DNA from: an uncultured Bacteroidota bacterium
GTDB taxonomy: Bacteria; Bacteroidota; Bacteroidia; Chitinophagales; Chitinophagaceae
DNA: 64,000 bases
Assembly: GCA_903910765.1 (NCBI GenBank)
Contig: CAIWBA010000291.1
Location: 1-64,000, forward strand
Direction: 5' to 3'
This document shows, in pieces, positions 34,645 through 63,542 of the stretch. Position numbers and translations under genes: made by a program. The notes below the pieces were generated by a model, which worked only from the letters and a program-made list of their open reading frames with translations, made no database searches and was not told where the DNA came from. Within the stretch, counting starts at the first letter, position 1. The number at the start of each line of letters is the position of its first letter.

Positions 34645-37065
34645 ATGAGATATGTAATTTCAGCAGACCAATACTTTAAACAAGGTTCTAAACCAGTTAA
34701 TGAAAAACTTGTTCAGTATTTTGAAAGTATCCCTGAGTCTTTTTGGACTGCACTTGATGCAGTTGACTTTAGTAAACCAAGTAAACCTAGAACCTCGGTT
34801 CATTCAGAACAAGAAATATTTGAACATCAAGTTTTTTTACTTGAGAATTTTGAAGACATTAATGATATTATCAAAAAGGAAGACTTTTTGGTTAGACAAG
34901 GATATGATACAATTAAGCTTAGACTTAACGAATCATACTTAGCACAAGTTCAATTAATTAATGAAAGCGTACTTAGTTCAGTTATGAACTTTGTAAAAGC
35001 CCTAGTTGCAGATGATGATCCAGTTGAAATGGGTCTAAATGTACTAAGGCTAGTATTGGATGTAATTGGAATTGTTCCATTTAGTTGGGCAGGCTTTCCA
35101 ATTGATAGTGTTGCTAATTTTTTATCTGCTATAATTTCATTATATAAAGGCGAATATATTTCAATGGTTCTTAGTCTTATTGCAGTAGTTGATGTTACTA
35201 AAACCAGTAATATATTAAAAGCTATTAAATTTTTACCTAAACCTATACTTAAAATACTTGAGAAATTAGCAAAGATTTTATGTAGAGCAGGAAATAGTTC
35301 TACTGAATTAACCGCAAGTGTTCTTGCACTAAAGGACGGTATCAGAACACTAGGTGATAAAAGTGTTATTGGAATAATTGTTTCTTTATTTAAAGGAATT
35401 GCAAATTTCTTTTCAACAATTGCAGTAGGTCTACTTAAATTCATTAGCAATTTTATCAAAACCATATTTGGTCCTTTTCCAATTGTTGGTAAATACGCAG
35501 TTAAAGCAATTGAATCAATTGAAAGATTAGGACTTGAAGCTCAACTTACGCTATTTGGCAGAAATTTTGAAACTGCTGCTAAATTACTTGAAAAAGAAGG
35601 TACTCAAAAAGAAATTATTGCTGGCGCTGAGGAACTTGCATCTAAAGCAAAAGGTAAAACTCAAGTTGGCGATACTGTTTTTTCTAAAAAAGGCGTAGAG
35701 TTTTTAGCAACAAGTACACAAGGAAAGGCTATACTTCAATCAAATGCCTATAAAAACTTTGATCCAGGTATAGTTGATGCATATTCAAAATCTGGAAGTT
35801 ACACAGCTGACTTATTAAAAACCGTTGAGTCAGATACTAAATTTATGGCATCCATTGCACATCAACCAATTGAGCTTCAACAATTAGCAAAGGCTGCAAA
35901 AGTTGAAAATGAATTAATTGGAGCATCAATTGACCAAATTGACATAATCATTAAAAATGATCCAAACTTAGCAGAATATTTTACAAAAAAATATGATTGG
36001 AAACCTAGTAGTGAATATATTACTAAAATGGCAAAAGATGGAAATGTTACTGAAATTAAGAGAGTATTTCAGATGATGTTAACTGACCCAGCTGTTTCTA
36101 AAAATTTATCAAAGGCTGAGATTAGAGCATTTACTCCATGGGCAACCAAGCCTGAAATTTTTATACAAGGTGTTAAAAACTTTAATGATACGGCTTATGT
36201 ACTTGCTAAATTAACTAAAGCCGGTGGGATTCTTGCAACACGTGGAATACTAACTAGAAGAATGATTACCTTTGTAAGTAGAATTATATGGCAAAGATAT
36301 AGTAGTTTAGAGTGTATTAAAGAAACTGCAATGAATGCAGTTGGCTCAACTGCTACTGATTTAGCTGGATCTGCTCTAAAATCTTCGCTAAATGAAGAAT
36401 TTATATCTACTGGTGATTCTATAGTAGATGCAAATAATGCAGCTGCAAATCAAGTAGCTACAAATCAAGCAAATATTACAAATCCTGAAAAAACCTCAAC
36501 TGATGGTTTATCTGAGATTGAAAATATTATTAAAAAGAATGATGAGAATTCAAAGACTGCAAAAGAAAAAGGCGGTAAAACCAATTGTAAATTACTAAGT
36601 GAGACCGTTAAAGCTGCCACTGGAGCACATTGTGCTAATTTCCCAGGGTCAACTGCTCTACTTGGAGGTACTGGTAATATGGGAAATGATCCAAAAGCAG
36701 CAGAAGAATTTCAAAAGAAGAGTACTGAATATACTAAGCAGATTTTAAAGTCAATGGGATTAGATGATACTATTGATGTTCAGCATGCACTAGAGTCACA
36801 ATCGCCTGGTACTAAATTAGTATTTAGTGAAGTATTTGACTATAATACAGGTATTATAAGTTTAAATATGGAAGATGCTCCAAGAATTCATGAAATTGCT
36901 CAGCAATGGGTTAAAGAAGGTGTAATGACTCAAGAAGTTGCAGATGCTGCTGAGAAAGAAGCGCTTGAAATGATTAAGACTGGAAATATACCTGAACTAA
37001 AAGTTCCTCAAAGTAAATCAACAAATGAAGGTTTATTTAGGACTAAAACCTTTAACTTTGCATAA
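34645..37065 (+). CDS. Large hydrophobic-core protein, possible injected protein
   Basis: An 806-residue protein behind a late-type promoter. Residues about 130-285 hold hydrophobic segments (VLRLVLDVIGIVPFSWAGFP, SMVLSLIAVV, KSVIGIIVSLFKGIANFF, then SFFSTIAVGLLKFISNFIKT-like helices) that resemble the pre-toxin or pore-type module of polymorphic toxins; a smaller copy of this layout is at 59290. Residues about 300-800 are helical. Several (L/I)NE sites occur (RLNE, LINE), which a T4-like prohead protease could cut. I infer a virion protein delivered into the host with DNA. Confidence 0.5.
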   Translation: MRYVISADQYFKQGSKPVNEKLVQYFESIPESFWTALDAVDFSKPSKPRTSVHSEQEIFEHQVFLLENFEDINDIIKKEDFLVRQGYDTIKLRLNESYLAQVQLINESVLSSVMNFVKALVADDDPVEMGLNVLRLVLDVIGIVPFSWAGFPIDSVANFLSAIISLYKGEYISMVLSLIAVVDVTKTSNILKAIKFLPKPILKILEKLAKILCRAGNSSTELTASVLALKDGIRTLGDKSVIGIIVSLFKGIANFFSTIAVGLLKFISNFIKTIFGPFPIVGKYAVKAIESIERLGLEAQLTLFGRNFETAAKLLEKEGTQKEIIAGAEELASKAKGKTQVGDTVFSKKGVEFLATSTQGKAILQSNAYKNFDPGIVDAYSKSGSYTADLLKTVESDTKFMASIAHQPIELQQLAKAAKVENELIGASIDQIDIIIKNDPNLAEYFTKKYDWKPSSEYITKMAKDGNVTEIKRVFQMMLTDPAVSKNLSKAEIRAFTPWATKPEIFIQGVKNFNDTAYVLAKLTKAGGILATRGILTRRMITFVSRIIWQRYSSLECIKETAMNAVGSTATDLAGSALKSSLNEEFISTGDSIVDANNAAANQVATNQANITNPEKTSTDGLSEIENIIKKNDENSKTAKEKGGKTNCKLLSETVKAATGAHCANFPGSTALLGGTGNMGNDPKAAEEFQKKSTEYTKQILKSMGLDDTIDVQHALESQSPGTKLVFSEVFDYNTGIISLNMEDAPRIHEIAQQWVKEGVMTQEVADAAEKEALEMIKTGNIPELKVPQSKSTNEGLFRTKTFNFA

Positions 37066-37073
37066 TAAATAAC
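37065..37073 (+). promoter_or_regulatory. T4-late-like promoter element ATAAATAAC
   Basis: It lies 22 nt before ATG 37096 and continues as TAAAA. Confidence 0.55.
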
Positions 37074-37095
37074 TAAAAATAAGTAAACAACAAAT

Positions 37096-38157
37096 ATGAC
37101 ACTTGTTAAAAAATTTAATGACTTTATAAAGCCTGAGGTATCTCAGGATATTAATGAAGCAGATATTACACCAGTAAGTAAAGGTACTCCAGAAAAAGGC
37201 GAGGTTGCAAGATGGGATATTGTTATTAAAGACCGAAAAGAGGGAGCAGTTGATGTAGCAAATCCATCACAAACCTATATTGAATTATTGGCTAGAGACC
37301 CTGAATTTAAAACTTGGTGGAATGAATCTGATCCAGGAAAACAATATAAATCGCCAAACGCACAAACTATACCTAATCATAATATGTTAGCTGTAATTGA
37401 TTTAGGTGTTTCAAATAAAACTAACCTATTTGGTAAAAAAGTATTTAAAGCAAGTATTGCATTTCTACCTTATTCAGATAAAAATACCGGTACTGGTACT
37501 CAAGATGTAATGTATGATGTTACTAAAGTTAAACACCGAGCTCTTTCAGAAGTTAGTGGATCTGGTGTTAAACTTGCTGCCTGGAATAGAACTGATTTAC
37601 CTGCTATTAAATTACCTGCACCAATTCCAGCAAAAGATAAAGCCGGAAATTTGGTTGATAGAAATTTAGTTAGTCCAGCGTATATGGAAGAAGCTGGCGG
37701 TGCTCCAACTACCGTTGCTGCTACTTCCACTACTACTGATACTACAACTACCACTAATACAACTACAGCTAGTGTACCAGGATCTACTAATACAACTTCA
37801 TATGTTGGATTAAAAGCAACCCAAAACTTTGATCAAAAAATTCAAGACTTACAGAAAAAAATTATTGCTAGTGGAAATGTTGAAGCAGCTAATGCAATTA
37901 AAATTAAAGGTGGAGCTGTTGGAAAATATGGAAGTGGAACCGGTCTAGCAATTGGTATCTTAACTGGTACAAATAAAGAAGAGGGAGAAATTACTCCAGA
38001 CTTAGCCGCTAAATTAGATGCAGCCTTAAAGAATGTAACTCCTGAACAAATTGCAGCGGTTAAAGCGCCAGCTGTTCAAGCAGCAACTACTGCTAAGCCT
38101 GCAGAAAAGGTAGCAGCTATCACAGTAACGACTAAAAAGGGAACATTAACTTTCTAA
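37096..38157 (+). CDS. Probable capsid-targeted protein with Thr-rich linker
   Basis: A 353-residue protein. The leader MTLVKKFNDFIKPEVSQDI-NE ends in I-N-E, like a prohead-protease site. A folded N-terminal domain (to about 200) is joined by a Thr-rich linker (TTTDTTTTTNTTTA) to a C-terminal helical domain of about 130 residues. No enzyme motif is visible. It lies between two other late genes of the same leader type. Confidence 0.55.
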   Translation: MTLVKKFNDFIKPEVSQDINEADITPVSKGTPEKGEVARWDIVIKDRKEGAVDVANPSQTYIELLARDPEFKTWWNESDPGKQYKSPNAQTIPNHNMLAVIDLGVSNKTNLFGKKVFKASIAFLPYSDKNTGTGTQDVMYDVTKVKHRALSEVSGSGVKLAAWNRTDLPAIKLPAPIPAKDKAGNLVDRNLVSPAYMEEAGGAPTTVAATSTTTDTTTTTNTTTASVPGSTNTTSYVGLKATQNFDQKIQDLQKKIIASGNVEAANAIKIKGGAVGKYGSGTGLAIGILTGTNKEEGEITPDLAAKLDAALKNVTPEQIAAVKAPAVQAATTAKPAEKVAAITVTTKKGTLTF

Positions 38158-38173
38158 AAAATAAAATCTATTT

Positions 38174-39208: not shown

Positions 39209-39210
39209 TA

Positions 39211-39678
39211 ATGATACAAACATTTTCTAATTTCTTGGCAGAAAAAAAGAAATATTCAGATGGAGCTGGTGTAGCTATTCTTTATGGAAAAAAGATTCTA
39301 CTAGTTCATCCAACTAATGGCAGTTGGACCAGACCAATTATGGGAATTCCCAAAGGTGGAATTGAAGAAGGCGAAGAAATACTTGATGCGGCTCTTAGAG
39401 AACTTAAGGAAGAGACTGGAATTAGACTATCACCTGATAAACTTGAACCAGCAATTCAAACGGTTGATGTTTTTAATAAAGAAGGCCAATATAAATGCTC
39501 ACTACACTATTTTATCTGCCGAATTTCTAGTCTCTCTGAAATAGGACTTGACTCATTAGCTGTTCCAAAGAGCCAATTACAGGCAAAGGAAGTTGACTGG
39601 GCAGGTTTTATTGATATTAAAGAAGCCTATTCAAAAGTATCAAGATCACAATTATTAATTTTAGATAGACTTTCTTAA
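39211..39678 (+). CDS. Nudix hydrolase with capsid-targeting-like leader
   Basis: A 155-residue Nudix protein. The box GGIEEGEEILDAALRELKEE followed by TGI matches G-x5-E-x7-REUxEExGU exactly. Nudix enzymes cleave nucleoside diphosphates linked to another group, for example (d)NTPs, ADP-ribose, dinucleotides or RNA caps; the substrate cannot be read here. The first 11 residues, MIQTFSNFLAE, closely match the T4 internal protein leader MKTYQEFIAE and lie before the Nudix fold, which begins near residue 17. It may therefore be packaged in the head and injected. It is transcribed with the two leader-type genes upstream. Confidence 0.85.
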   Translation: MIQTFSNFLAEKKKYSDGAGVAILYGKKILLVHPTNGSWTRPIMGIPKGGIEEGEEILDAALRELKEETGIRLSPDKLEPAIQTVDVFNKEGQYKCSLHYFICRISSLSEIGLDSLAVPKSQLQAKEVDWAGFIDIKEAYSKVSRSQLLILDRLS

Positions 39679-40316: not shown

Positions 40317-40320
40317 GTTT

Positions 40321-44924: not shown

Positions 44925-45521
44925 ATGACTATGATTAAGAATTTTGACGATTTTGTAAATGAAGCAGTTACTCCAGCTATTTTAGCTAATGCAATTAACG
45001 ACTGTAAAGCTCAACAACTTAAGAGTATTTCTGACTTTAAAAGTAAGTATAAAACTGAATTAGATAAAGCAAATAAGGTTGTTAATGTATATCAAGTAAT
45101 TGATAAATTTAGTAATTGGGTAGTTGGTAAAACACCAGCAATGGTTCAGGCTGCTTTATCAAATTCTCCAGGAACCGCTGATAAACTAGTAATTGAGGCA
45201 TATACTTTCATTTATATGGAAATACAGAACCAGTTAAAGTCAATTGGTACACTTAAAAAATCCGCAATTAAATTATTAGCTCCATCAGCCGCCGATTTTG
45301 ATTCTCAAAAAATTGACTCAGACCTAGAGGCTCAAATTTTTCAATTGGCTGAGAATATATTTGATGCAGGTTTTGCCATTGGTTATAGATTTGATGATAA
45401 GTCACTTGAGGCAAATAATGCTTCAACCTGGTCAGTTGCTTTTGTCAAATCTCTTAATGCTAGAGAATCATTAATTATCAAAAATATTAGATTATTAATT
45501 CGTAACTTTTTATATAACTAA
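44925..45521 (+). CDS. Probable capsid-targeted internal protein
   Basis: A 198-residue, mainly helical protein with leader MTMIKNFDDFVNE, or MIKNFDDFVNE if the second ATG (44931) is used. The shorter form is almost identical in style to MSIIKNFKDFVNE at 59018 and to T4 MKTYQEFIAE. No other motif is visible. A late-type promoter precedes it. I infer packaging into the head and processing after V-N-E. Confidence 0.6.
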   Translation: MTMIKNFDDFVNEAVTPAILANAINDCKAQQLKSISDFKSKYKTELDKANKVVNVYQVIDKFSNWVVGKTPAMVQAALSNSPGTADKLVIEAYTFIYMEIQNQLKSIGTLKKSAIKLLAPSAADFDSQKIDSDLEAQIFQLAENIFDAGFAIGYRFDDKSLEANNASTWSVAFVKSLNARESLIIKNIRLLIRNFLYN

Positions 45522-47069: not shown

Positions 47070-47300
47070 ATGCGAGACAGCTTATCAATAATTAATGAAG
47101 TATTAACTAGTTCAGATAATACTAAATATCGAGTTAAAGACTTTAGTGTTACCTACCTAAACCATACGTATATTACACTTGAGTGTTGTACAACTAAGTG
47201 TCGTATTAATTATAGATTTACCGATTTTAGGTCATTCCTAACTGATAATGGATTCTCATTAGCCAAGTCAACTGCAAAATCCTATCAATTTAACAGTTAA
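47070..47300 (+). CDS. Small protein with targeting-like leader
   Basis: A 76-residue protein. MRDSLSIINE ends in I-N-E and could be a short capsid-targeting leader. The rest is a small basic domain with CCTTKC. An ATG at 47065 in another frame is closed after eight codons. Function unknown. Confidence 0.5.
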   Translation: MRDSLSIINEVLTSSDNTKYRVKDFSVTYLNHTYITLECCTTKCRINYRFTDFRSFLTDNGFSLAKSTAKSYQFNS

Positions 47301-48130: not shown

Positions 48131-48697
48131 TTATCGAGTAGTTTTATGAGGTCTTAAAGATTGTACACTTTTACCTTTTTCCATGTTTGATTTTTTAGAT
48201 GGTGTACTTAATATTCCATTATCTGGGATATTGCTAGTTTTAGAAAATACCTTGTTTTTATTCATAGACTCTTCGGTCTTTTGTGCAGATTTCAAAGCTT
48301 TTGCATCTGGGTAACTTTTATCTCCAGGTTTTGCAGGTTTTTCTCCACGCTTTCTTTTTGCATTGATATTATCCCATAAACCTTTTTTCTTTTCGGAAAT
48401 GTTTAGACTTGCCAATAGTGTGTCAGATTCATCTGCAAAACTTTGTGCAATATCTTCTCCTTCTAAATTATTAATCTTTAAAATAAGATCATTTTGTAAA
48501 TCTTTAATTCTGGTATGGGTTTCATACTTTTCTGTATGCTGGTCAATTTCAATAGGCGAAGTTGCATATTGATTAGCTAAGTCAATTAGTTCCTGGGTAA
48601 TATTGTGATAAATTGGGTCAGATTTCATATTTGGAGCCTGGTGAAATTTATCATAACCTTCTTCAAATTTTTCAAATAGTGCAATGTAACGTTTCAT
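48131..48697 (-). CDS. Probable capsid-targeted basic protein
   Basis: A 188-residue protein with leader MKRYIALFEKFEE (L-F-E or F-E-E as possible cut). A helical part follows, and the C-terminal half is Lys/Ser-rich and probably disordered (KRKRGEKPAKPGDKSYPDA). This basic composition fits a DNA-associated internal protein. A late-type promoter faces it at 48723-48731. Confidence 0.55.
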   Translation of the reverse strand: MKRYIALFEKFEEGYDKFHQAPNMKSDPIYHNITQELIDLANQYATSPIEIDQHTEKYETHTRIKDLQNDLILKINNLEGEDIAQSFADESDTLLASLNISEKKKGLWDNINAKRKRGEKPAKPGDKSYPDAKALKSAQKTEESMNKNKVFSKTSNIPDNGILSTPSKKSNMEKGKSVQSLRPHKTTR

Positions 48698-49563: not shown

Positions 49564-50892
49564 ATGAACAAACTAGATAAAGATTATCAAGCACTACTCC
49601 AAGATATCTTAGATAATGGAGTAACCAAGTCCGACAGAACAGGAACTGGAACAATATCAGTATTTGGAAGACAGATACGTCATAAGATGAGTGACGGCTT
49701 TCCATTACTTACAACCAAAAAGATGGCTTGGAAGACAATGGTGACAGAATTAATATGGTTCCTACGTGGTGATACAAACATCAAATACCTTGTTGATAAT
49801 AATTGTCATATTTGGGATGGTGATGCATATAAACATTACTTAAACAAAGCTAAAAACTACACAACCGAAGATTTATTTTACAATAAATTATCTGGTGTGG
49901 GCGATGTAATTGAAGGTATGTTAGAAGCACATACCAGAGATTTTAGACCTTATACTCAAGAAGAATTTATCAACAAAATCAAAACCGATGATGAGTTTGC
50001 TAAACAGTGGGGTGAGTTAGGATCAATTTATGGTAAGCAATGGAGAAGTTGGAGCCGAAATGCAACTCGTGATGAGAAAATAGTTGACCCTGGTGTTTAT
50101 ACAAAACAAATAGACCAAATCCAAAACCTAATCAACGATCTTAAAACAAATCCAGACTCGAGACGATTAATGGTTTCAGCTTGGAATGTAGGTGAATTAG
50201 ATCAAATGGTTCTTCCACCTTGTCATTATGGATTTCAAGTTTATACAAGAGAGTTGAGTGAAAGCGAAAGATTTAATTGGTATGGAAACAAAATAGGTTC
50301 TCACATGCATCATGACCACATTGAACAGGAAATGAATGAGAATAATGTTCCAACCAGAGCATTATCGTTAATGTGGAATCAACGTTCAGTAGATACATTT
50401 TTAGGTTTACCATTCAATATAGCTTCTTATGGTTTACTACTTGAAATCATTGCTAAAGCAGTTAATATGGTTCCTGATGAATTGGTTGGAAACTTAGGTG
50501 ATGTACATTTATATTCAAATCATATTGACCAGGCAAAAGAACAAATTGGTAGAGAATATTCAGTTGATGAAAGACTTGATCTACTATATAAAATTGAACC
50601 TGACTTTAATGCAGTTTCTAGATTTGGAATAGCTGGACATATTAATAGCTATTGTAATTCTATAATTGATGAATATGGAATCGCCAAAAGAACTAGAGAG
50701 CCATTCAAATTACCAACCTTAAATATCAATACTGAGTTTTGGCCTAAGGAAACTGAAGATGGTCCATTAGATGCAGTTGCAATAGTTAACGGATTTAGTG
50801 ATGCCAATTTTTGTAAATGCCTATTAGAAGAAGATATTCAATTAGGTAATTATCAATCACATCCAACAATTAAAGCACCTTTATCAAATTAG
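49564..50892 (+). CDS. thyA: Thymidylate synthase, enlarged
   Basis: A 442-residue ThyA; cellular enzymes have about 264. SDRTGTGTISVFGRQIRHKM is the dUMP-site Arg loop, MVTELIWFLRGDTNIKYL follows, LPPCHYGFQVY carries the active-site Cys near residue 218, and QRSVDTFLGLPFNIASY and YSNHIDQAKEQ match further on. The end YQSHPTIKAPLSN corresponds to the C-terminal segment. Extra sequence lies at about 95-165 (between WDGDAYKHYL and GSIYGKQWRSW) , 230-270 (MHHDHIEQEMNENN) and 340-420. It makes dTMP for phage DNA. Its stop overlaps the stop of the convergent lysin gene. Confidence 0.9.
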   Translation: MNKLDKDYQALLQDILDNGVTKSDRTGTGTISVFGRQIRHKMSDGFPLLTTKKMAWKTMVTELIWFLRGDTNIKYLVDNNCHIWDGDAYKHYLNKAKNYTTEDLFYNKLSGVGDVIEGMLEAHTRDFRPYTQEEFINKIKTDDEFAKQWGELGSIYGKQWRSWSRNATRDEKIVDPGVYTKQIDQIQNLINDLKTNPDSRRLMVSAWNVGELDQMVLPPCHYGFQVYTRELSESERFNWYGNKIGSHMHHDHIEQEMNENNVPTRALSLMWNQRSVDTFLGLPFNIASYGLLLEIIAKAVNMVPDELVGNLGDVHLYSNHIDQAKEQIGREYSVDERLDLLYKIEPDFNAVSRFGIAGHINSYCNSIIDEYGIAKRTREPFKLPTLNINTEFWPKETEDGPLDAVAIVNGFSDANFCKCLLEEDIQLGNYQSHPTIKAPLSN

Positions 50893-52223
50893 GCAATATT
50901 TTTTGAGTCTAATGAACTAGCAAAAGCTTTTGCTTTTTGTAAACCTGCTGAAACTACTGCTCCATCTAATGAAGTTCCCCAACCTGCATTTGCTCTAATA
51001 TAGTCAGTAACTGCAGAATCTAGGTCAGAATAATCATTTGGGTTTTTATTATGTCTCTTAAATGTATCAACAAAATATAGAATTGCAAATTCAGCTGCAA
51101 CCTCAGGTTTTTCAAGAAGTTCAGGGTTTTTAACAATATCAATACTACCTAAAGACTGATTTGACTTATTATAAATCTTTTGTAAGTTTTCGTAATTTCC
51201 TTTGAATGTTATTCCGTTAAAACCTCGACCTTTATATTTTTCTCCATCACCTGGTTCAGTATTACCGTACATTCCTCCATATACTGCTTCCCAAAATTTA
51301 CTGTCAAATCCAGCTTTACCTAATTGTCTCCAACCTTCAATTTCTTCATCTGAGTATTTTGAAATTCGGTTACCAAATACCTCTTTCATTCTGGTAAGTG
51401 GTGTACTAAAATATGAAGTTTCACTACCTCCTTTTGCTGACTCTTTTGAAATTACTCCAAGTATTGCTTTACGAGCAAATTCATTAGTTATTCCATGTTT
51501 GTCCATTGACTTTTCCAAGGCTTTCATATTTGCCTCTGGAAAAGCACTTACTGCTTTAAAGTTTGCGCCTTTACCTGCAGTTAATTGTGTTGAATATTTG
51601 TCTAAATCAGCTTGTGAAAAATTCTTTTCTTTTAATTTTGTAACAAGTCTCTTAATTAAGTCTGAGTCGATTACAATACCGCTTGCTGATAAATTGCTAG
51701 TAGTTGCCTCTGCTCCAGTTAATCCGCTAACGATAATAGGGTCTTCTACTTTAGCATTTGCAGTTTTAGAATTTTCTGCACTTTTTCCATATGATAAATG
51801 AAAGTGACCTGCTGTTGCAGCTGCCGTTGGATTAGTATATTCATCTATATAACTAAAACCTGGAGTTCCAGCTGAAACTCGATTAAGTACAGAAATCATT
51901 TGTTCATGAGCTTCATCTGAGTTAGGTGAAATTACAAGATCAATGGCTTGACCTTTTGTATGTCTACTTACATATGATAAGTTATGGTGAAATGCATCAT
52001 TTCCTCCAGTAACTGTAACTTTAACACTTGGTGCAAGTTTTTTAAATTCTTCAAGAACTACTTCAGAAATCTTTTGAATATCATCAGTAATATCTCCACC
52101 ACTACTAAGCTCTGATGATTTTTCAGAATATCCAAGTTCGGCTAATTTATCTCTAAGCTCGTCAGATTGAGTTGCTTCATTAAGTCCATTTTTAAAATCA
52201 GTATACGATTTAATTTTGGTCAT
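50889..52223 (-). CDS. Two-domain peptidoglycan hydrolase (M15 peptidase + GH19-like) with targeting-like leader
   Basis: A 444-residue protein. Residues about 45-150 look like an M15-type D,D-peptidase: SRHTKGQAIDLVI with His88 and Asp95, and AGHFHLSYGK with His140/His142. Residues about 235-440 resemble GH19 lysozyme/chitinase: ISKESAKGGSETSYFSTPL, TRMKEVFGNRISKYSDEEI and KYKGRGFNGITFKGNYENL. The leader MTKIKSYTDFKNGLNE ends in L-N-E, as in the other putative internal proteins. Either this is the endolysin, or it is a virion-borne hydrolase used at entry. It is expressed with the peptidoglycan-binding gene upstream. Confidence 0.75.
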   Translation of the reverse strand: MTKIKSYTDFKNGLNEATQSDELRDKLAELGYSEKSSELSSGGDITDDIQKISEVVLEEFKKLAPSVKVTVTGGNDAFHHNLSYVSRHTKGQAIDLVISPNSDEAHEQMISVLNRVSAGTPGFSYIDEYTNPTAAATAGHFHLSYGKSAENSKTANAKVEDPIIVSGLTGAEATTSNLSASGIVIDSDLIKRLVTKLKEKNFSQADLDKYSTQLTAGKGANFKAVSAFPEANMKALEKSMDKHGITNEFARKAILGVISKESAKGGSETSYFSTPLTRMKEVFGNRISKYSDEEIEGWRQLGKAGFDSKFWEAVYGGMYGNTEPGDGEKYKGRGFNGITFKGNYENLQKIYNKSNQSLGSIDIVKNPELLEKPEVAAEFAILYFVDTFKRHNKNPNDYSDLDSAVTDYIRANAGWGTSLDGAVVSAGLQKAKAFASSLDSKNIA

Positions 52224-52588
52224 TAGATTCCTTGAGTTTTTTTAGTATCTTCATTAAACTTCTTAATTGCAGAAGCTGTTTCTGGACCAAAATATCCATC
52301 AATTCCATATTTTTCAAGCTTATAACCTAAAAATTCTAGTGCAAGTTGAATATCTTCAACCATTTTAGAATATTTCATTTCTCCTGACTTTTCAACAGGA
52401 ATAGACTTTTTAGAACCTGCAAAATCTTCAAGAGTTTTATAAAATTCAGAGAGCTTATCATCAAGTATATCCTGGTTCTCAGTGTTTCCTTGTTTCTTAG
52501 CTTCACCTTCTTCACTTTTTCCAGTTAGCCAGTCCCAAAAACCGCCTTCATTAATAGTTGAGTTAAACTCAGTAAATGTTTTAATCAT
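52223..52588 (-). CDS. Peptidoglycan-binding protein with targeting-like leader
   Basis: A 121-residue protein. Residues about 70-118 (MVEDIQLALEFLGYKLEKYG, IDGYFGPETASAIKKFNED) are a PG_binding_1 domain. Leader MIKTFTEFNSTINE ends in I-N-E and is close to the T4 type. GGFWDWLTGKSEEGEAKKQG links the two. Start and stop of the pair overlap at TAATG (52221-52225), so the binding protein and the hydrolase are probably made together. Confidence 0.75.
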   Translation of the reverse strand: MIKTFTEFNSTINEGGFWDWLTGKSEEGEAKKQGNTENQDILDDKLSEFYKTLEDFAGSKKSIPVEKSGEMKYSKMVEDIQLALEFLGYKLEKYGIDGYFGPETASAIKKFNEDTKKTQGI

Positions 52589-53390: not shown

Positions 53391-55357
53391 TCAATTTCAA
53401 AACGGTCAGTCAGCTTTCTTAATAGATCTAATCTAACTGGGGTAGGTCTTTCAAATCCACCAAATGTTCTTAGGTAGATAAATGGTTGATTTGCAGTATT
53501 TCTGGTTGTATAGTCGCATTTAGCTAAAATACCCCAGTTGTTTTGATGATTTGCAATATAATAATGATCTCCAGCACGTGCTCTTAATTTATCATCTTCA
53601 GTAACTGGTGCTAATTGATATGCAACTAATCCCATTCCAACAAATGGACCCTCAACCTCTTTACCAGTAACCACATTAATTAAAACAATACCGTCAGGAT
53701 TAGTGGTTAACTCTCGTGGATTTTCAACAGATCGTATACCTGATCTACCTACTTTTTCAATTGCAACAAATACTGGAAGTCCAACCGCTCCTCTAAGACT
53801 TGACTGTTGAGGTTCGGTTAAGACTACAAATTTTGCAAAATCGCCAGTTCTGATTTTTTTAAGAAGTTCAATATTACCTAAAGTTTGACGATGTCTAACT
53901 ATATCCTTTAATTCAGCTCCACTAAAATCAAGTCTACCAAATAGTGCTTTATCACTAGCTCTTCCTAAGTTTTGAGAACGATCTCTTTGAATTCTTTCTC
54001 TTTCAGCCTCAACTTCAGCATCTCTGCGTTGCTGAATTGCTTCTGGTCTTAATCTAGCAGTGATATATTGTATACCGTTTGAAGTTAGGTTAACGTTATT
54101 TAGATCAGGTATATTATTAATATTTACTTTAACCCATTGTGATTTATTGTCAGTTGTTCGGGTATCACCAGCATTACTTGCAGTAAATTCACCATGCTCA
54201 ATTCTGATAGCATCATCAATAGATACAGCAATATATGTTCCATTTCGGCGGTCAGCAACATATCTAATAGGCAGAGTATTATAGTTTGCATCATATAAGT
54301 ATTGTTTAACTACAATAAAGTCTCCAACCGTCCATTCATTATCTGGCTCAGCACCATATTGTGCAATACGAGTTGCTAATCTTCTTCTGGTTTCAGCCTC
54401 TTCACGAGATAGTCTCTCTCTATCTATTGCCTCTTGGCGTTCTCTACGTTCTCTTTCAAGTCTTTCAGTTTCTGACCGAACTGAGTTAATTGCAGTTAAT
54501 CTTGCATTTGAAATACGACCATCAGCCGCTAGTGATGTTAAATATGTATCATCTAATTTTGTTAATAATGAATCCGGTAAAATTTCCAAAAGTTCATCAT
54601 CAATATCAAATTTATTGGGTTGAGTATTACGAACACCAATTGAGTCTGTAATAAATCTAGTGGCTACATTAATTTTCTCAGAGGTAGGTACTCCTTTATC
54701 CATTGCTAACCAGTTTGCTGCTCCAATTATTGCAAGAGCATCATCAACTGATGGAGTTCCATCTGGGTTTGCTTTATAATCTAACATTGACCCCCAAGCT
54801 TTATCCTTTTCTGAACTTCCACTTGAATTTGAAGAAATATAACCTGCATATTTTAATAGTGTTCTGTATAATTTATAACCTAATCCAGTACCTCTAATTG
54901 CTGGTGGAATTCCATCATTTGGAAAATGACTTCTTTGAAAAGAGTCAGGACCCTCTGTTTTAAAATGAATTGCATCATTATTAGTTGGGTAAATATCTCT
55001 CCATCTACCAAAATCATTTTTAGTTCGGGCTTCATCTAATTGTTTAGCCTCTTTAATCAGAGCAACAATTTGTGCAGGTAATTTTGGATAATAGTTTCTG
55101 GTATTATTAGGATTTTCCATTGTAATATCAGTTCTAACAACATTCTTAAATGCACGAGTTAGCTCAACTGCAACTTCTGCATAGGTTCTTCTAACTGGTT
55201 GATTTGCTGTTGCTGCGCGTCGGTCAACTGTACCTTGTCTAACTCTACCGATATGACTTCCAGAAAGTCGTTCAGGTCTCTTAACCCCCATTTCATCAAC
55301 TAGTCCATTCTGGTTAAAATTTGATTCATTAATTGCTTCTATAAAAGAATTTGCCAT
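53387..55357 (-). CDS. Large internal protein with GNAT-like segment
   Basis: A 656-residue protein with leader MANSFIEAINE ending in I-N-E, behind a late-type promoter at the usual 22 nt spacing. Residues about 150-185 (RGTGLGYKLYRTLLKYAGYI, then SSEKDKAWGSML) look like the acetyl-CoA loop of GNAT acetyltransferases, but the rest of the fold is not clear. A coiled, Arg/Glu-rich helix (about 290-330) precedes beta-rich parts with repeated WTVGDFIVVKQYL-like strands. I infer a virion-packaged protein, possibly modifying a host target. Confidence 0.5.
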   Translation of the reverse strand: MANSFIEAINESNFNQNGLVDEMGVKRPERLSGSHIGRVRQGTVDRRAATANQPVRRTYAEVAVELTRAFKNVVRTDITMENPNNTRNYYPKLPAQIVALIKEAKQLDEARTKNDFGRWRDIYPTNNDAIHFKTEGPDSFQRSHFPNDGIPPAIRGTGLGYKLYRTLLKYAGYISSNSSGSSEKDKAWGSMLDYKANPDGTPSVDDALAIIGAANWLAMDKGVPTSEKINVATRFITDSIGVRNTQPNKFDIDDELLEILPDSLLTKLDDTYLTSLAADGRISNARLTAINSVRSETERLERERRERQEAIDRERLSREEAETRRRLATRIAQYGAEPDNEWTVGDFIVVKQYLYDANYNTLPIRYVADRRNGTYIAVSIDDAIRIEHGEFTASNAGDTRTTDNKSQWVKVNINNIPDLNNVNLTSNGIQYITARLRPEAIQQRRDAEVEAERERIQRDRSQNLGRASDKALFGRLDFSGAELKDIVRHRQTLGNIELLKKIRTGDFAKFVVLTEPQQSSLRGAVGLPVFVAIEKVGRSGIRSVENPRELTTNPDGIVLINVVTGKEVEGPFVGMGLVAYQLAPVTEDDKLRARAGDHYYIANHQNNWGILAKCDYTTRNTANQPFIYLRTFGGFERPTPVRLDLLRKLTDRFEID

Positions 55358-57710: not shown

Positions 57711-58514
57711 TTAGTTGACGTAGTTATTGAGAGCAGTTTCAAGATCGTCAGTCTTTTCAAGTGTTGATGAAGGCTCTCCATAATATAATTCGTATCGATC
57801 TTCTAAAAGATCTGATGCATTTACTTCATTTTTAAGATTAAGTAATCTAATTCCAAACCAGTCAGCCTCCATTTCTTGGCGCTCATTATACTGAGAAGCT
57901 TGGTCGTATTTAGGAGCAGAGTGTTCTAATTCAAAATGTGCAATTTCATGAGCTTCAATTGCAAGTAGATGATCATTTGTTAAATTTTCTTTCTCAATTA
58001 TTACTCCATCCATATAAATTGTCTTTGACTCTAGGTCAGCAAATGCAATTCCTAAATAGTTAAAAATCTTTGCAAAATCTGCATATAGAGAATCTTCTGG
58101 CCAAAGGGCTATAATTGTCCAATCCTGGTCAAGTTTACTTTTCCATGCACTAGGTTCTGAACCTTCTGATAAATTATAACGCTTCATTTTTGAAGCACGT
58201 TGACCAGTTAGGTCTCTCCATAACTCTCGTATATCAGGTTGAGCTAAAGTATCCGCTTGTACCATTGAATAAAATTGATTATCTGAGTTCTGCATCATTG
58301 CGAACCATTCTTCTAGTGTTGGTTTCTTAGGTAGAGCTTCTATTCTAGGCTTTAGCCTGCGGAACATTGGAAACAACTCTGTTTCATATTTGTCACCAGT
58401 ATGTGGGTTTCTACCAAATTTACGATTAATACCAAGATCACTTAATTGCTTAAGAGGTCTTGGATGCTCAATATTTTCAGATACCCATGTATTAAAAGTT
58501 AAGATAGTTGTCAT
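57711..58514 (-). CDS. Zinc metalloprotease with targeting-like leader
   Basis: A 267-residue protein. HEIAH at residues 189-193 is the zinc site and EMEAD (214-218) the downstream acidic ligand region; the overall fold may be ImmA/M48-like. Leader MTTILTFNTWVSE ends in V-S-E. An N-terminal region of about 130 residues has no recognised domain. Head packaging followed by injection would allow cleavage of host or defence proteins at once after entry; this is an inference. The ATG is only 5 nt from a late-type promoter element. Confidence 0.7.
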   Translation of the reverse strand: MTTILTFNTWVSENIEHPRPLKQLSDLGINRKFGRNPHTGDKYETELFPMFRRLKPRIEALPKKPTLEEWFAMMQNSDNQFYSMVQADTLAQPDIRELWRDLTGQRASKMKRYNLSEGSEPSAWKSKLDQDWTIIALWPEDSLYADFAKIFNYLGIAFADLESKTIYMDGVIIEKENLTNDHLLAIEAHEIAHFELEHSAPKYDQASQYNERQEMEADWFGIRLLNLKNEVNASDLLEDRYELYYGEPSSTLEKTDDLETALNNYVN

Positions 58515-58519
58515 TCTGT

Positions 58520-58528: not shown

Positions 58529-58539
58529 CCCTAGCATAG

Positions 58540-58548: not shown

Positions 58549-58564
58549 AAAAAAATTAATACAA

Positions 58565-59002
58565 ATGATTCATAAATATCAACAATGGATTGAGGAATCT
58601 GAAAAGGTTGAAGCGAATGAACAAGTTCCATCAACTACTCCAGAAGAACCTGCAGCAACTGATGCATCAGCTTTACCAGTTACAACTGAAATGCCAGCAG
58701 TAACTACTCCAGAAATTCCAACTGAAATCGTATCAGCTGAGTCTGAAATCGAAGAATACCATACTTTAGATAAAGCTCGTAGAGAGGCAATTAAAGCATT
58801 TAAAGAAAAGCAAAATGAATTTTTAGAAATTCCAATGGACATTCGTAAGAATCCAGTTGAAGAGGCTGACAAGACTAAAGTTGAAGAGTTAAAGGCAACC
58901 TTAATTGAACTTAATAAAACAATGAAATCGGCAATTGCTGACTGGAATAAATTTAATTCACAGGCACTTGGTCTTGAAGATGACGAAGATATTGAACCAT
59001 AA
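58565..59002 (+). CDS. Probable capsid-targeted acidic protein
   Basis: A 145-residue protein with leader MIHKYQQWIEE (I-E-E). The next about 55 residues are Pro/Thr/Val/Glu-rich and disordered; a helical C-terminal part follows (LDKARREAIKAFKEKQNEFL) and ends in acidic LEDDEDIEP. It shares direction with the next two leader-type genes. Confidence 0.6.
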   Translation: MIHKYQQWIEESEKVEANEQVPSTTPEEPAATDASALPVTTEMPAVTTPEIPTEIVSAESEIEEYHTLDKARREAIKAFKEKQNEFLEIPMDIRKNPVEEADKTKVEELKATLIELNKTMKSAIADWNKFNSQALGLEDDEDIEP

Positions 59003-59017
59003 AATAAACAAAAGGCT

Positions 59018-59278
59018 ATGTCAATTATAAAGAATTTTAAAGATTTTGTTAATGAAAGCTCAGATCAATCGGATTTATCAGAATCGGTAAATAGCCCAAG
59101 ATCTAAACTTCATAGAATAGTAAAAGGAATACTGGTAGCAGCTAGGAGTACTGCACATGATGCTAAAGAAAGAGAAGAAAAACTTGAAAAAGAATTGGAT
59201 GATCTTATGGATGAACACCCAGAATTTACTCCTGAAATGGTTGAAAAGATTCAAGATGATATTGCAAAAAATTTATAA
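59018..59278 (+). CDS. Probable capsid-targeted small helical protein
   Basis: An 86-residue protein. MSIIKNFKDFVNE is the clearest T4-like leader here. The remainder is basic then acidic, helical (SKLHRIVKGILVAARSTAHD, REEKLEKELDDLMDEHPE). No enzyme motif. It follows the acidic leader-type gene by 15 nt. Confidence 0.65.
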   Translation: MSIIKNFKDFVNESSDQSDLSESVNSPRSKLHRIVKGILVAARSTAHDAKEREEKLEKELDDLMDEHPEFTPEMVEKIQDDIAKNL

Positions 59279-59289
59279 GTTATACTAAA

Positions 59290-60078
59290 ATGCAATACCT
59301 ATTAGAGTATACTGAGTGGACAAACCACCGAGAACAAGAGATTAATGAAGATTGGGGATGGGACGACCTTGCTCATCTTGGAGTTGATGTGATAAGTGCA
59401 CTAGCTGATTCATGGGTTCCAGGTTCAGGAAGTATAATTGACTTAATTCATGCACTTTCATACTCTATTCAAGCAAGCTTTGCAAAGACGGATGCTGAAC
59501 AAGTTTCTTTAAATATGCAAGGTTTAATAACTCTAGCCTCAGTTGCTGCAATTAGTGGAGCTCAAGCTATTGCCGTTGCACTAAAAGCTCAAATTAAAAT
59601 TGTGATGGCTGCTTTTACTGAAGGTCTTTCCAATCCATCTGCTTTAAAATTAGCAAAAGCTGCTGCCCCAGAAGTTTCAGCTAAAATTAAGACTCTTCTT
59701 GGAATGGTTGAAAATATTGGCAAATGGGTAGGTCAAAAAATTAGAGAGTTTAAAAATTCTCAATTAGGAGAATGGCTTATTGGTAAATTTGGATCAATTG
59801 ATATTGCAATTACTAAATTAGGAGACTTAATAACTAAAAGTATTCCAGCATCAATTAATAAGTTTCTACAATTTCTAGCAAAACTTAATCCACTAAAATT
59901 AGGAGCACATGGATCAACTGGAGAAACTGGAGAGCTTCTACTTAAAACTGCTGCCAAACACTATGCAACTGCTAAGACTACAAATACTACGATTACTGCT
60001 CTAACCAATACACAGACTAAAACTAAGCAAGAAATTGCAGGTCTGGCTAAAAAACCTGAAGCCAAACCTACTACTTAA
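59290..60078 (+). CDS. Hydrophobic toxin-like internal protein
   Basis: A 262-residue protein with leader MQYLLEYTEWTNHREQEINE ending in I-N-E. Residues about 25-110 form a hydrophobic module (DDLAHLGVDVISALADSWVP, SGSIIDLIHALSYSIQASF, then LITLASVAAISGAQAIAVAL) like the pre-toxin segment of polymorphic toxins and the larger protein at 34645. The C-terminal helical half could be an effector or DNA-binding part. No catalytic motif. Confidence 0.55.
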   Translation: MQYLLEYTEWTNHREQEINEDWGWDDLAHLGVDVISALADSWVPGSGSIIDLIHALSYSIQASFAKTDAEQVSLNMQGLITLASVAAISGAQAIAVALKAQIKIVMAAFTEGLSNPSALKLAKAAAPEVSAKIKTLLGMVENIGKWVGQKIREFKNSQLGEWLIGKFGSIDIAITKLGDLITKSIPASINKFLQFLAKLNPLKLGAHGSTGETGELLLKTAAKHYATAKTTNTTITALTNTQTKTKQEIAGLAKKPEAKPTT

Positions 60079-60116
60079 TCGATCCGCTTATAATATTATA
60101 ATTAGAATAAAACAAG

Positions 60117-60141
60117 AAAAGCTGGATATTCCAGCTTTTTT
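60117..60141. terminator. Rho-independent terminator
   Basis: AAAAGCTGG, loop ATATT, CCAGCTTTTTT. It lies 39 nt after the gene ending at 60078; flanking A and T runs let it act in both directions. The following sequence to 60232 shows no gene. Confidence 0.85.
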
Positions 60142-60232
60142 AATGTGATCTGAGATGATATTAGTTACTGGTTAGATTACTATTGACATATTAGTTAAAT
60201 AGTGGTCAGTGTCATCCAATAAGTGGGATCCT

Positions 60233-60886: not shown

Positions 60887-60890
60887 ATTT

Positions 60891-60899
60891 TTTATTTAT
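60891..60899 (-). promoter_or_regulatory. T4-late-like promoter element ATAAATAAA, close to start
   Basis: Reverse complement of TTTATTTAT, 4 nt before ATG 60886; divergent from the -10-like element at 60922. Confidence 0.4.
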
Positions 60900-60921
60900 C
60901 AGGAAAATTTATTTAAAAGAG

Positions 60922-60930
60922 TAGTATATT
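60922..60930 (+). promoter_or_regulatory. -10-like element TAGTATATT
   Basis: It lies 24 nt before ATG 60955 of the CAP gene. Confidence 0.35.
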
Positions 60931-60954
60931 AATCTTAACCAAACTACCCTAATT

Positions 60955-61485
60955 ATGAAAACCTTAATCACAATTATATTTTTAAGTTTTGCAATTACAA
61001 TCAGTGCTCAAGATTCAGCAAATAAAATATTTTTAGAATTAGTAAATGCACATAGAGCAAAGCACGGATTGAAACCAGTAGAGTATTCAGCACTGTTAGA
61101 TTCAGCTGCAACTTTACATGTTAATTGGATGGTAGCTGCTAATAAATTAAGTCACTATGAATCTCCATTAACACCAGATGCAGTGTATTATGGAGATCCA
61201 TTAGAAAGAATTAAGAAATTTGCTGGAATTGAAAACTTTGATACACGATGGAGAAACCACTTCTATTCTGTATTTGAAAATGCGGCTGGTCCATTATTAT
61301 GCACAAATATTGATAGAGAGTCAATCACTCAAATATTTAACTTATGGGTTTCATCAAAAGGCCATAATAAAGCTCTCCTTGATCCAAAGGTAAATATTGC
61401 AGCATTTAATTTACACGGAAACTATAACAGTTTAATAAAACGGTATAGTGCATATTCAGCGTGTTTATTAGTAACTAAATTATAG
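60955..61485 (+). CDS. Secreted CAP/SCP-domain protein
   Basis: A 176-residue protein with a signal peptide (MKTLITIIFLSFAITISA, likely cut before QDS). FLELVNAHRAKHGLKPVEYS and LDSAATLHVNWMVAANKLSH give the CAP N-terminal motif, and SVFENAAG and FNLWVSSKGHNKALLDPKVN the central and C-terminal ones. CAP domains are known in phage and bacterial secreted proteins, functions vary. It is transcribed away from the nuclease gene. Its stop touches the stop of the convergent next gene. Confidence 0.8.
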   Translation: MKTLITIIFLSFAITISAQDSANKIFLELVNAHRAKHGLKPVEYSALLDSAATLHVNWMVAANKLSHYESPLTPDAVYYGDPLERIKKFAGIENFDTRWRNHFYSVFENAAGPLLCTNIDRESITQIFNLWVSSKGHNKALLDPKVNIAAFNLHGNYNSLIKRYSAYSACLLVTKL

Positions 61486-63123
61486 TTAGCGCTGATTAAG
61501 CTTTGGACAAATATCAAGACCTGCACTTTTATTAGGAGCAAACGGTCCATCATAATTACCGCCTGGAGGACCTGGTATTTTAATTTTAATCGATTCATCT
61601 GCCCAACTAATAACTGATTTCCATTCGGTATTAGGTGTTGCAAATTCAGCAGGCGGTGTTGTATTTGTCTTGGCAATTGTATATGTTAGTTGAAAGAATG
61701 CTTGTGAATATCGCCATTGACCATATGTTGATTGATATAATGGAGATCTGTTGCCAAGTGGACCCCATTTTTGATCATCTCTTTTATCTGCATCAGTCCA
61801 CTGTGGACCACTATTAGGCATTGGATTATTTTTTGCTGCATCAGTAGTAGGAGTAATAGTTATTCCGTTTGCAGCAATAGAGTCAGCTAGAGCTTTATTA
61901 ATTGAGGCAATTCGGTCATTTGCTAATTGTACATTATTTGCTTGACTATACGTAGTACCATCTTTAGAACCATATTTTGTTCCTACTTGTGAAGTCCTTG
62001 ACCAACCCCAAGTAGAAATAGATGTTATTGTGCCGCCAGCTGCCTTAACTGCATCTAATGCTGATTTAACCATTGCATCTAATTCAGCTTTTTTATCTGG
62101 TTGAATTGTTATCCCATCATCTGGAAAAAGTTGTTGAGCTTTTTGGAATGCTGTACTATTAGGATCGCCATTTGGATCTGGTGGATATGAAAATGCTTGA
62201 ACAGTTGGAGCAGATGAAGCCTCTACTGATTCTGGAGAGTCAACTGTAATTGCTTGACCTTTAGGTGCAATACGTAAATTTGTAGCAATTAAAATAGCTT
62301 TATCAAAAGTTATACTAGAATCCTTTTTACGCGCAACATAGGTATCTGCCTTTGATTTAAAATTGTCTAATATTGCCTTCTTATCTGCATCAGTAATTGA
62401 GACAGCTGATGTCCAATAACTATTAACTGTGGATGAATTTGTTTGCTGGCTAACTAAAAAGTTAGCAGAGGTTAATGGGTCCTTCTTTAATTCTGGACTA
62501 GGTGTTGTAGCACTTAATTGCCATTTAACTAGTGCAGCTTTAAGACTATCTTTTATTTGATCTGCTGATTTTGAAAGTTCTTTTACTATATCTACTCCAT
62601 ATGCTGTTCCATTCACTAATGCCTCTGGTATAATAGAACCTAAAAGTCCAATATTTGCTAAATCAAAACCTTTTCTTTTTGCCTGCTTTAATTTATCAAT
62701 TGCCTGTTTAAGTTGAGAAATCTTTTCTGCAGTTACTCCAGCCTTTGCACCATTTGCAATAATTGCATCTGCTACTTTATAGAAAGTATCAGTAGTTGGG
62801 GCTTTTGCATTAACTACAGTTCCACCAGTCCAATAGTACATTGACTTAAGCGAATTTAGTTTATCAGATTTAGATGCTGAACCTTTTTTAAGAAGTGTCT
62901 TAACTAGATTAAGGTCGCCTCCTCCATTTTTCCACCATTGCATTACTGAGGTATATGCTGGATGAGCTTTAATCTCTGGTGAATCTGCTGCCATTGCTGC
63001 CTCAACTAAACCAGCTAGATTGCCAGCTTTATATAGTGCACCAATATCAACTCCTTCAGCTTCTGCAATTAATAGGTTTTCATTTAGCCAGGTAGTATAG
63101 TTCTTAATTATTTGAGTCTTCAT
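61486..63123 (-). CDS. Large internal protein with OmpA-like C-terminal region
   Basis: A 545-residue protein with leader MKTQIIKNYTTWLNE ending in L-N-E. Residues about 30-280 are helical with repeated Asp/Lys/Ala-rich units. Residues about 335-460 (KAELDAMVKSALDAVKAAGG, TSISTWGWSRTSQ, NNVQLANDRIASINKALADS) recall the OmpA-like peptidoglycan-binding fold. The end is Gly/Pro-rich. A virion protein acting at the cell wall or envelope is possible. The start region has no ATAAATAAC element. Confidence 0.55.
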   Translation of the reverse strand: MKTQIIKNYTTWLNENLLIAEAEGVDIGALYKAGNLAGLVEAAMAADSPEIKAHPAYTSVMQWWKNGGGDLNLVKTLLKKGSASKSDKLNSLKSMYYWTGGTVVNAKAPTTDTFYKVADAIIANGAKAGVTAEKISQLKQAIDKLKQAKRKGFDLANIGLLGSIIPEALVNGTAYGVDIVKELSKSADQIKDSLKAALVKWQLSATTPSPELKKDPLTSANFLVSQQTNSSTVNSYWTSAVSITDADKKAILDNFKSKADTYVARKKDSSITFDKAILIATNLRIAPKGQAITVDSPESVEASSAPTVQAFSYPPDPNGDPNSTAFQKAQQLFPDDGITIQPDKKAELDAMVKSALDAVKAAGGTITSISTWGWSRTSQVGTKYGSKDGTTYSQANNVQLANDRIASINKALADSIAANGITITPTTDAAKNNPMPNSGPQWTDADKRDDQKWGPLGNRSPLYQSTYGQWRYSQAFFQLTYTIAKTNTTPPAEFATPNTEWKSVISWADESIKIKIPGPPGGNYDGPFAPNKSAGLDICPKLNQR

Positions 63124-63203
63124 TATATTTCGGTTATATGTATTTTCTAGATATTATCTATCTGTTCTTTTGTACTATAAGTATATTGCAGGTTTTAAAG
63201 AGT

Positions 63204-63542
63204 TTATAGTGCCTCTCCAGTAATCATCCATTCAATCCAACCCAATTCGTTTGGGCTTAATTCCAATAAACCTTCAGTATAGTGATCCCAACCCTTTAGA
63301 TCAGCTGGCGTGTTAAGGTCTATCCATTTATCAATATACTGATTTGCCTTAGACTGTAGTACTCGAATTGCCTGATGAACTTCAGGATCACCGCCCCATT
63401 CATCAATCATTTTATCCAGACGTTCATCAAATGGTTCAGTGTTAACTAGTCCATAATTTTTCATATTATTTAAGGTTTCGCTATCTTCATCAGACTCCAC
63501 TGATTCTATTAAATACTGTTTAAATGGCTTAATTTCTCCCAT
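63204..63542 (-). CDS. Probable capsid-targeted small acidic protein
   Basis: A 112-residue protein with leader MGEIKPFKQYLIE (L-I-E). The rest is acidic and helical (DEWGGDPEVHQAIRVLQSKA, ELSPNELGWIEWMITGEAL). A late-type element is 20 nt upstream. No motif identifies its action. Confidence 0.6.
   Translation of the reverse strand: MGEIKPFKQYLIESVESDEDSETLNNMKNYGLVNTEPFDERLDKMIDEWGGDPEVHQAIRVLQSKANQYIDKWIDLNTPADLKGWDHYTEGLLELSPNELGWIEWMITGEAL

Follow-up and report, generated by a model that had tools for sequence, protein, structure and literature searches.

Contig CAIWBA010000291.1 (C291; 254,203 bp), which comes from a metagenome-assembled genome, is by its capsid, protease, portal and sigma factor genes a giant T4-like phage. 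Many of its proteins, otherwise unrelated, open with the same kind of short leader. Very probably this leader is a capsid-targeting sequence (CTS) working as in phage T4, and about 40 tagged proteins per genome would be cut, freed in the head and injected with the DNA. The window is the stretch of 64,000 bases (1-64000 of the contig) from which the leader was originally predicted, and the leader analysis covers the whole contig with its 327 open reading frames (ORFs). The leader, its conserved positions, the unrelated passengers, the protease, the capsid protein, the late-type motif and the gain and loss of the tag were read from the sequence.

A leader common to unrelated proteins

Genomes compared were G003, G005 and G008 (the three relatives), G009, G012, PTm1, PAU and T4; in IMG/VR, 98 stretches held relatives, and 80 of these were retained. 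Genes are named here by one end coordinate, with a trailing minus sign for the minus strand. Profile A has nine positions and was trained on 19 leaders outside the window, which were chosen by a pattern written after leaders inside and outside it had been seen. Applied to the window, it reached at least 7 bits in nine of the 15 proteins listed in the original prediction, all of which are present with the predicted starts, compared with none of the 59 other window ORFs and 0.49% of shuffled N-termini. Genes 38174, 50889-, 53387- and 59290 had lower scores of 1.8 to 5.6 (null tails 0.009 to 0.042), and the profile failed on 47070 (tail 0.12) and 48697- (tail 0.26). The latter carries a leader of another class, M(K)...LFE, not modelled by profile A; the G003 homologue keeps this leader (MKRYVALFESFEE), and the class occurs in 8 of the 327 ORFs (shuffle mean 0.14, maximum 2). 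Gene 47070 was rejected because its two homologues (MQDSVQLEEL and MRDSIQLEDL) are without the leader. This leaves the leader on at most 14 of the 15 listed proteins, with 38174 and 59290 the weakest.

In the converse test, profile B was built from 12 window leaders and applied to the 253 ORFs outside the window, of which 20 reached at least 9 bits. Two nulls (internal Met and shuffle) reach this score in 0.3-0.4%, values that are somewhat too low because one start per ORF was tried, against several in the scan. Three of the 20 matches look false (internal starts at 251220, 70266 and 96588), and 64989-, which likewise depends on an internal start, was retained. Contig-wide, 48 leaders were initially picked by hand; removal of 47070 and of 124318, judged unconvincing by eye, gave 46. 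The original figure of about 15 is therefore an underestimate: there are about 40 or more leaders across the contig, a set about three times larger that reaches beyond the window.

A strict leader pattern, also written after the leaders had been seen, was compared with 50 shuffles matched for the number of starts. It occurs in 26 of the 327 ORFs of C291 (shuffle mean 1.42, maximum 5) and in 21/343 ORFs of G003, 25/345 of G008, 16/312 of G005 and 11/219 of G009, the four relatives with the scaffold repeats described below. Shuffle means were 0.8-1.4 and maxima 3-5 (3-4 in these four relatives). Counts were no higher than the null in G012 (2/234), PTm1 (3/338) and PAU (1/308), which are without the repeats, and in T4 (4/282).

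As predicted, the proteins are unrelated downstream of the leader, and without their first 20 residues the 46 fall into 44 families by BLASTP. Two pairs (37096/91532 and 83794/88515) are alike beyond the leader, and identity between leader genes over the first 39 nt reaches 0.90 at its highest; both points fit an origin of the leader as the duplicated 5' end of paralogous genes. Such duplication, or a chance or compositional similarity, is a most improbable explanation: it is contradicted by the shuffle nulls, mean DNA identity over the same 39 nt is 0.40, and homologues keep the leader pattern while its residues change.

A probable T4-like signal for targeting and processing

The proposal that the leader is a T4-like CTS with a cut site after Glu is supported by the ranking of T4 internal proteins, the conserved positions, the protease and the capsid gene. 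As an outside positive control, profile B was run on the 282 ORFs of T4, where the top three were gp61.1, ipII and ipIII. T4 gp61.1 (NC_000866 18966-19130; L192) is a 54-amino acid (aa) hypothetical protein that starts with MKTFKEFIKE like the internal proteins, and is possibly a further one. In T4 IPIII, residues 4 and 7 are reported to set targeting and residues 8 and 10 processing, and IPIII with Asp at position 10 is described as targeted with cutting blocked (PMC9026906). When 29 clean leaders were aligned by eye on the fixed Glu, position 4 was F/Y in 27, position 7 was F/W/Y in 26 and position 8 was I/L/V in 28. By this alignment, the conserved leader positions are the T4 targeting and processing positions. 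The P1' residue, which is not in the pattern, is S/N/A/G in 22 of 26 leaders compared with 28% after internal (I/L/V/M)-x-E (P=4e-9). The first 120 residues of the capsid protein hold three (I/L/V/M)-x-E sites, and the one at 53 (INE followed by S) has the commonest leader residue at P3, P2, P1 and P1'. The LFE-class leaders MKYIKLFEEHEED, MKYIKLFEDHTTD and MKHIKLFEDFDLD have Asp where T4 has Glu 10 (alignment by eye) and are predicted to be targeted but uncut.

A gp21-like protease was sought outside the window and found at C291:181925-183943 (L013:7925-9943; PF03420, E=1.3e-8), directly before the gene for the gp23-type major capsid protein (C291:183968-185668; PF07068, E=4e-41). The AlphaFold model of its close relative L017 matches the solved structure of T4 gp21, 5jbl (Foldseek E=8e-10). 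Residues H84 and S139/S140, which we take to be catalytic in this S77 protease, are invariant in 21 IMG/VR relatives. The contig also has genes for a portal protein (C291:155652-157331; phrog_213, E=9e-64) and a sigma factor (75603). Among the best 40 of 2387 matches in the phages collection, the nearest relatives of the capsid protein are from uncultured giant phages, Prevotella Lak phages, PTm1, pT24, PAU, MA9V-1 and MaF61.

Leader genes are enriched in an upstream motif that emerged from counting k-mers without a preset candidate. Of about 230 k-mers tested, ATAAATAA scored best: it is present in the 70 nt before the start of 25 of the 46 leader genes, compared with 27 of the 194 other ORFs with 100 aa or more (uncorrected P=3.5e-8); we presume it to be akin to the T4 late promoter consensus. 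Other genes bearing it include those for the protease-scaffold and a baseplate wedge (15860), not those for the capsid or portal. The 7-mer ATAAATA stands 24-34 nt ahead of the start in 20 of 28 occurrences, and in G003, G005, G008 and G009 it likewise tends to precede leader genes (P 1e-2 to 2e-4). Of the 14 listed window genes considered (47070 left out), 8 have it in the 80 nt before the start, and the claim that most leaders follow late-type promoters holds narrowly. TATAAT was rejected as the late-type motif, as it is not enriched (3/46 vs 22/194).

From these features, and with T4 as the guide for packaging and injection, we infer core binding, cutting, presence in virions, injection and host-directed function. 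Through its two aromatics (T4 positions 4 and 7), a freshly synthesized, late-expressed protein would dock onto the prohead core. Next, the S77 protease, itself fused to a scaffold-like region, would cleave behind (I/L/V)-x-Glu (positions 8 and 10) and release the passenger within the shell; passenger and DNA would later leave together by the tail and enter a new host. The roughly 40 proteins would comprise a core set that relatives share, with muralytic enzymes among them, and a rapidly changing set that is probably anti-host. Since the case for their place in the virion is indirect, the leader could also be read as targeting elsewhere (membrane, host surface or phage compartment) or as a regulatory N-terminus without packaging. 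We consider this very unlikely in view of the match to T4 internal-protein leaders, the cut-site signature with its P1' preference, the S77 protease and gp23 on the same contig, and the late-type motif.

Passengers and the gain and loss of the tag

Table 1. Leader proteins of the window, with leader coordinates, upstream motifs and homologues in the three relatives.
Feature	Position	Strand	Leader	Remarks
Leader protein, 353 aa	37096..38157	+	MTLVKKFNDFIKPEVSQDINE (37096-37158)	Spacer long, like that of T4 ipI; score 7.5 (null tail 0.004); G003 homologue MTFVKTFESFRATSLTE, then A; late-like ATAAATA 31 nt upstream
Possible leader protein, 344 aa	38174..39208	+	MNISNYARGLELSKYKINE, weak	Tail 0.042; MNISNYA...LVNE, then A, kept in G003 homologue
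Leader + NUDIX hydrolase, 155 aa	39211..39678	+	MIQTFSNFLAE (39211-39243)	PF00293 E=2e-13
Leader protein, 198 aa	44925..45521	+	MTMIKNFDDFVNE (44925-44963)	Score 15.1; late-like motif 24 nt upstream; homologue found in none of the three
Rejected, 47070	47070..47300	+	MRDSLSIINE	Listed earlier; tail 0.12
LFE-class leader protein, 188 aa	48131..48697	-	MKRYIALFEKFEE (48659-48697)	Late-like motif 34 nt upstream
Leader + endolysin/chitinase-like domain, 444 aa	50889..52223	-	MTKIKSYTDFKNGLNE (52176-52223)	phrog_181 E=9e-19; leader in a close homologue of each of the three; a fourth, distant match (28%) without leader
Leader + peptidoglycan-binding domain, 121 aa	52223..52588	-	MIKTFTEFNSTINE (52547-52588)	PF01471 (PG_binding_1) E=5e-7; leaders in three homologues
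Leader protein, 656 aa	53387..55357	-	MANSFIEAINE (55325-55357)	Late-like motif 30 nt upstream; 51-59% identity to homologues of the three, leaders ending DIVNE or QMVNE; no family match in Pfam and PHROG searches
Leader + metalloprotease-like protein, 267 aa	57711..58514	-	MTTILTFNTWVSE (58476-58514)	phrog_87 E=3e-7; PF01435 E=0.008, below cut-off; leaders in three homologues
Leader protein, 145 aa	58565..59002	+	MIHKYQQWIEE (58565-58597)	Score 15.6; late-like motif 25 nt upstream; three homologues with leaders
Leader protein, 86 aa	59018..59278	+	MSIIKNFKDFVNE (59018-59056)	Score 18.3; homologue found in none of the three
Probable leader protein, 262 aa	59290..60078	+	MQYLLEYTEWTNHREQEINE (59290-59349)	Tail 0.017; homologue found in none of the three
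Leader protein, 545 aa	61486..63123	-	MKTQIIKNYTTWLNE (63079-63123)	Score 15.5; three homologues with leader-like starts
Leader protein, 112 aa	63204..63542	-	MGEIKPFKQYLIE (63504-63542)	Score 16.0; late-like motif 28 nt upstream; G005/G008 homologues open with IKPFLxHINE leaders, yet align through their C-terminal halves

Pfam was run on 40 of the 46 leader proteins, and three reached the curated cut-off: NUDIX (39211), PG_binding_1 (52223-) and AAA_5 (141598). Weaker or PHROG-based assignments are endolysin/chitinase-like (50889-), metalloprotease-like (57711-), HAD/NT5C-like (204754-), nucleotidyltransferase-like (94441) and 2H phosphoesterase (100179). The sequences indicate that the tag is gained and lost among homologues, including those of one enzyme. 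T4 NudE aligns with the NUDIX protein 39211 only from query residue 9 and has no leader (29% identity, E=8e-5), and the NUDIX homologues in G005 and G008 keep the aromatics without the Glu. The 39211 leader is present in four of the six IMG/VR relatives whose starts were read (14 relatives found). Gene 64989- has a leader if its start is the ATG 24 codons inside the ORF; its homologues in G005 and G008 align from residue 21 and are without leader, and the one in G003 is the C-terminal part of a fusion. The ORFs near 64989- (C291 about 65000-69600; L014, L002) look odd and unlike the remaining contig, and misassembly or a foreign insert is possible.

The tagged 2H phosphoesterase (100179) has 36 IMG/VR relatives, with starts read in 29. 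Clear leaders are present in L215, L219 and L212, and a MIKLLDLLFE-like N-terminus in L202, L205, L206, L213 and L216; L208 starts at the domain itself, L220-L223 have the domain within longer proteins, and L201 and L226 are frame-broken. The two H-x-T/S motifs of the 2H fold (H62/T64 and H138/T140) are invariant in 21 sequences. The L196 model has a core with block-mean predicted local distance difference test (pLDDT) values of 80-97, compared with about 40 for residues 1-20. Structurally it is closest to the penguinpox cGAMP phosphodiesterase (E=4e-6) and to 9q2g, an Acb1-type enzyme of a Burkholderia phage (1e-5), followed by human Usb1 (2e-5), FBB1 Acb1 (1e-4) and E. coli LigT (5e-4). By this model the protein is a 2H phosphoesterase that resembles Acb1. 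We call it only Acb1-like because 100179 scores below the Pfam Acb1 gathering cut-off (19.5 bits vs 27), the general 2'-5' RNA ligase family outscores Acb1 over 21 relatives (best E 1.1e-13 vs 2.2e-7), and a profile search of solved structures placed what we take to be a LigT-like archaeal protein (E 5e-4) just ahead of phage Acb1 (9e-4). The PHROG label of the family is RNA ligase.

The passengers also bear on a rival reading, in which leader proteins are ordinary structural components of the prohead core or virion: the leader would hold them in the scaffold and be cut so that the head is cleared, and few or none would be injected. Homologues in all three relatives were found for 19 of the 46, some are small and acidic or proline-rich (e.g., 146301 and 209226-), and T4 gp22, gp67 and another core protein are reported to be cut to fragments (PMC9026906). 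NUDIX, muralytic, AAA and 2H-phosphoesterase passengers are not scaffold-like, however, and 15 of the 46 are without homologue in G003, G005 and G008, versus 28 of the 194 others that have 100 aa or more (P=0.009); lengths are unmatched, and trimmed leader proteins can be shorter, which favours this deficit. We therefore consider a purely structural role unlikely.

Several observations weigh against the reading of the leader as a CTS for injected proteins. Among the curated leaders, 20 of 46 fall outside the strict pattern, and a profile excess is also seen in phages without the repeats (PTm1 10 vs 3.8, PAU 12 vs 6.4, against the too-low one-start null). T4 ipI, with its longer spacer, is below 7 bits with profile B, and the T4 counts are not above the nulls (profile 6 vs 4.0 expected; strict pattern 4 vs 1.4, maximum 5). 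Some leaders keep the aromatics without a properly placed Glu, and for this reason not all leaders need be cut. No proteomics for this phage was found in the sources searched, and some leader proteins may be core proteins that stay in the head.

Elsewhere in the window, ARAGORN predicted a transfer-messenger RNA gene at 15390-15763 (minus strand). A thymidylate synthase stretch (49950-50257) has 81-82% DNA identity to Flavobacterium phage immuto and is the sole near match to window 34000-58000 in the phages collection. A repeat reading LYLQSKPL precedes several small ORFs (C291 70759, 71037 and 74289; L002) and is perhaps a repeated upstream element. Both contig ends look like low-complexity repeats (window 8-1927; C291 253471-254196), as if the assembly had been broken by one repetitive gene, and no exact terminal overlap of the ends was found at the six lengths tried.

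Leader-like repeats in a scaffold-like region fused to the protease

The protease ORF runs on into a region of nine tandem 14-residue units of the form I-x-Y-x-x-Y-L-A-E (e.g., TIDYSGYLGE and TVEYANYIAE), with the spacing of the leader. The term scaffold-like rests on position, a helical prediction with low pLDDT, and the annotation of a fused scaffold and protease in PTm1; a Pfam scan of the entire ORF matched only peptidase families S77 and S80. The repeat region is modelled as helical with block-mean pLDDT of about 31-48, and therefore we make no structural claim. The L017 model has a further, better-predicted C-terminal domain at about residues 500-620. ORFs upstream of the relatives' capsid genes have 7-11 matches to the repeat pattern in 25 of 28 cases, with a few of the matches outside the array; the exceptions are L090 (one match), L093 (none) and L028 (a fragment with none). 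A scan of proteins with at least two matches to the strict leader pattern found no tandem units in the protease or scaffold of T4, PTm1, PAU or G012.

Among 4100 internal Glu sites scored with profile B, four repeat units rank 13, 17, 24 and 25 (P=5.7e-4, and 1e-4 to 5e-4 in four relatives, with cut-offs set after the ranks were seen). On these sequences the resemblance of repeats to leaders is more than chance and not unique. The repeats are not the best single leader mimic of the proteome, as sites elsewhere outrank them, notably at 152800. The ORF at 152800-153693 (C291) has two internal leader-like sites (FESFVNE followed by C, and YENYLNE), with a similar form in G003, G005 and G008. The C-terminus of 171250 is GFADFIKEQNN, the same in G003 and similar without Glu in G005, G008 and G009. 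In PAU (L161-L171), M(K/G)...L(Y/F)E opens 20 of 308 ORFs (against a mean of 0.14 and a maximum of 2 in shuffles), seven of these continue to (K/R)LNE, and LYE(S/A) occurs near the C-termini of the portal, the protease and gp155. The repeat resemblance, the 171250 C-terminus and the PAU LYE(S/A) motifs are correlative and suggest that the leaders are copied from motifs in core proteins of the same phage.

In T4, the CTS of IPI, IPII, IPIII and Alt, processed by gp21, shares with the present system a short N-terminal leader, the key positions, the (I/L)-x-E cut site, the protease fold, a gp23-type capsid and variable unrelated passengers. It differs in that three internal proteins plus Alt are tagged, compared with about 40 here, where the protease is fused to a scaffold-like region with leader-like repeats and at least one passenger type that is untagged in T4, NUDIX (NudE), is tagged. 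The giant phages phiKZ and SPN3US likewise combine numerous head proteins and ejected proteins with a prohead protease cutting after x-x-E, reported as S/A/G-X-E in phiKZ (PMC13282480) and A-X-E in SPN3US (PMC10052503). In SPN3US, 9 of 53 head proteins are reported to be cut, most with propeptides of 111-254 residues and two with short ones (PMC10052503), whereas the leaders here are short with one common motif. Phage P1 DarB also has an N-terminal packaging signal, reported to suffice to bring a reporter into the capsid (PMC9024508); the same source, as far as seen, describes no motif common to many proteins, and P1 is apparently without a separate scaffold. Sphingomonas phage PAU resembles C291 in having many ORFs with a common leader and differs in its leader dialect and in protease and scaffold annotated as separate genes. 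Among the literature matches listed, which come from open-licence papers and have the PAU genome paper outside their coverage, no title or abstract opening concerns leaders of this kind in giant Bacteroidota phages. New here are the scale, the protease fused to a repeat-bearing scaffold-like region, the PAU dialect, the gain and loss of the tag, and a tagged 2H phosphoesterase resembling Acb1.

More tentatively, and with somewhat less than even confidence, we propose that the leader is a detached scaffold repeat unit, that any protein acquiring it would join the core, and that different giant Bacteroidota phages have dialects of their own, each matching their core proteins. The arsenal, including a phosphodiesterase for cyclic dinucleotides directed against the cyclic-oligonucleotide-based antiphage signaling system (CBASS), would then be pre-loaded and reshuffled by swapping a 12-residue tag. 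The few injected proteins of T4 are the textbook case, and the same kind of tag is found here on about 40 proteins; therefore the set of proteins that an uncultured giant phage probably injects can be deduced from its sequence. The scaffold repeats offer a testable answer to what the T4 leader binds. The injection of Tad1 reported for phiKZ (PMC13282480) is a parallel to a pre-loaded 2H enzyme. If the tagged 2H enzyme does cleave CBASS messengers, this defence would be switched off ahead of all phage gene expression.

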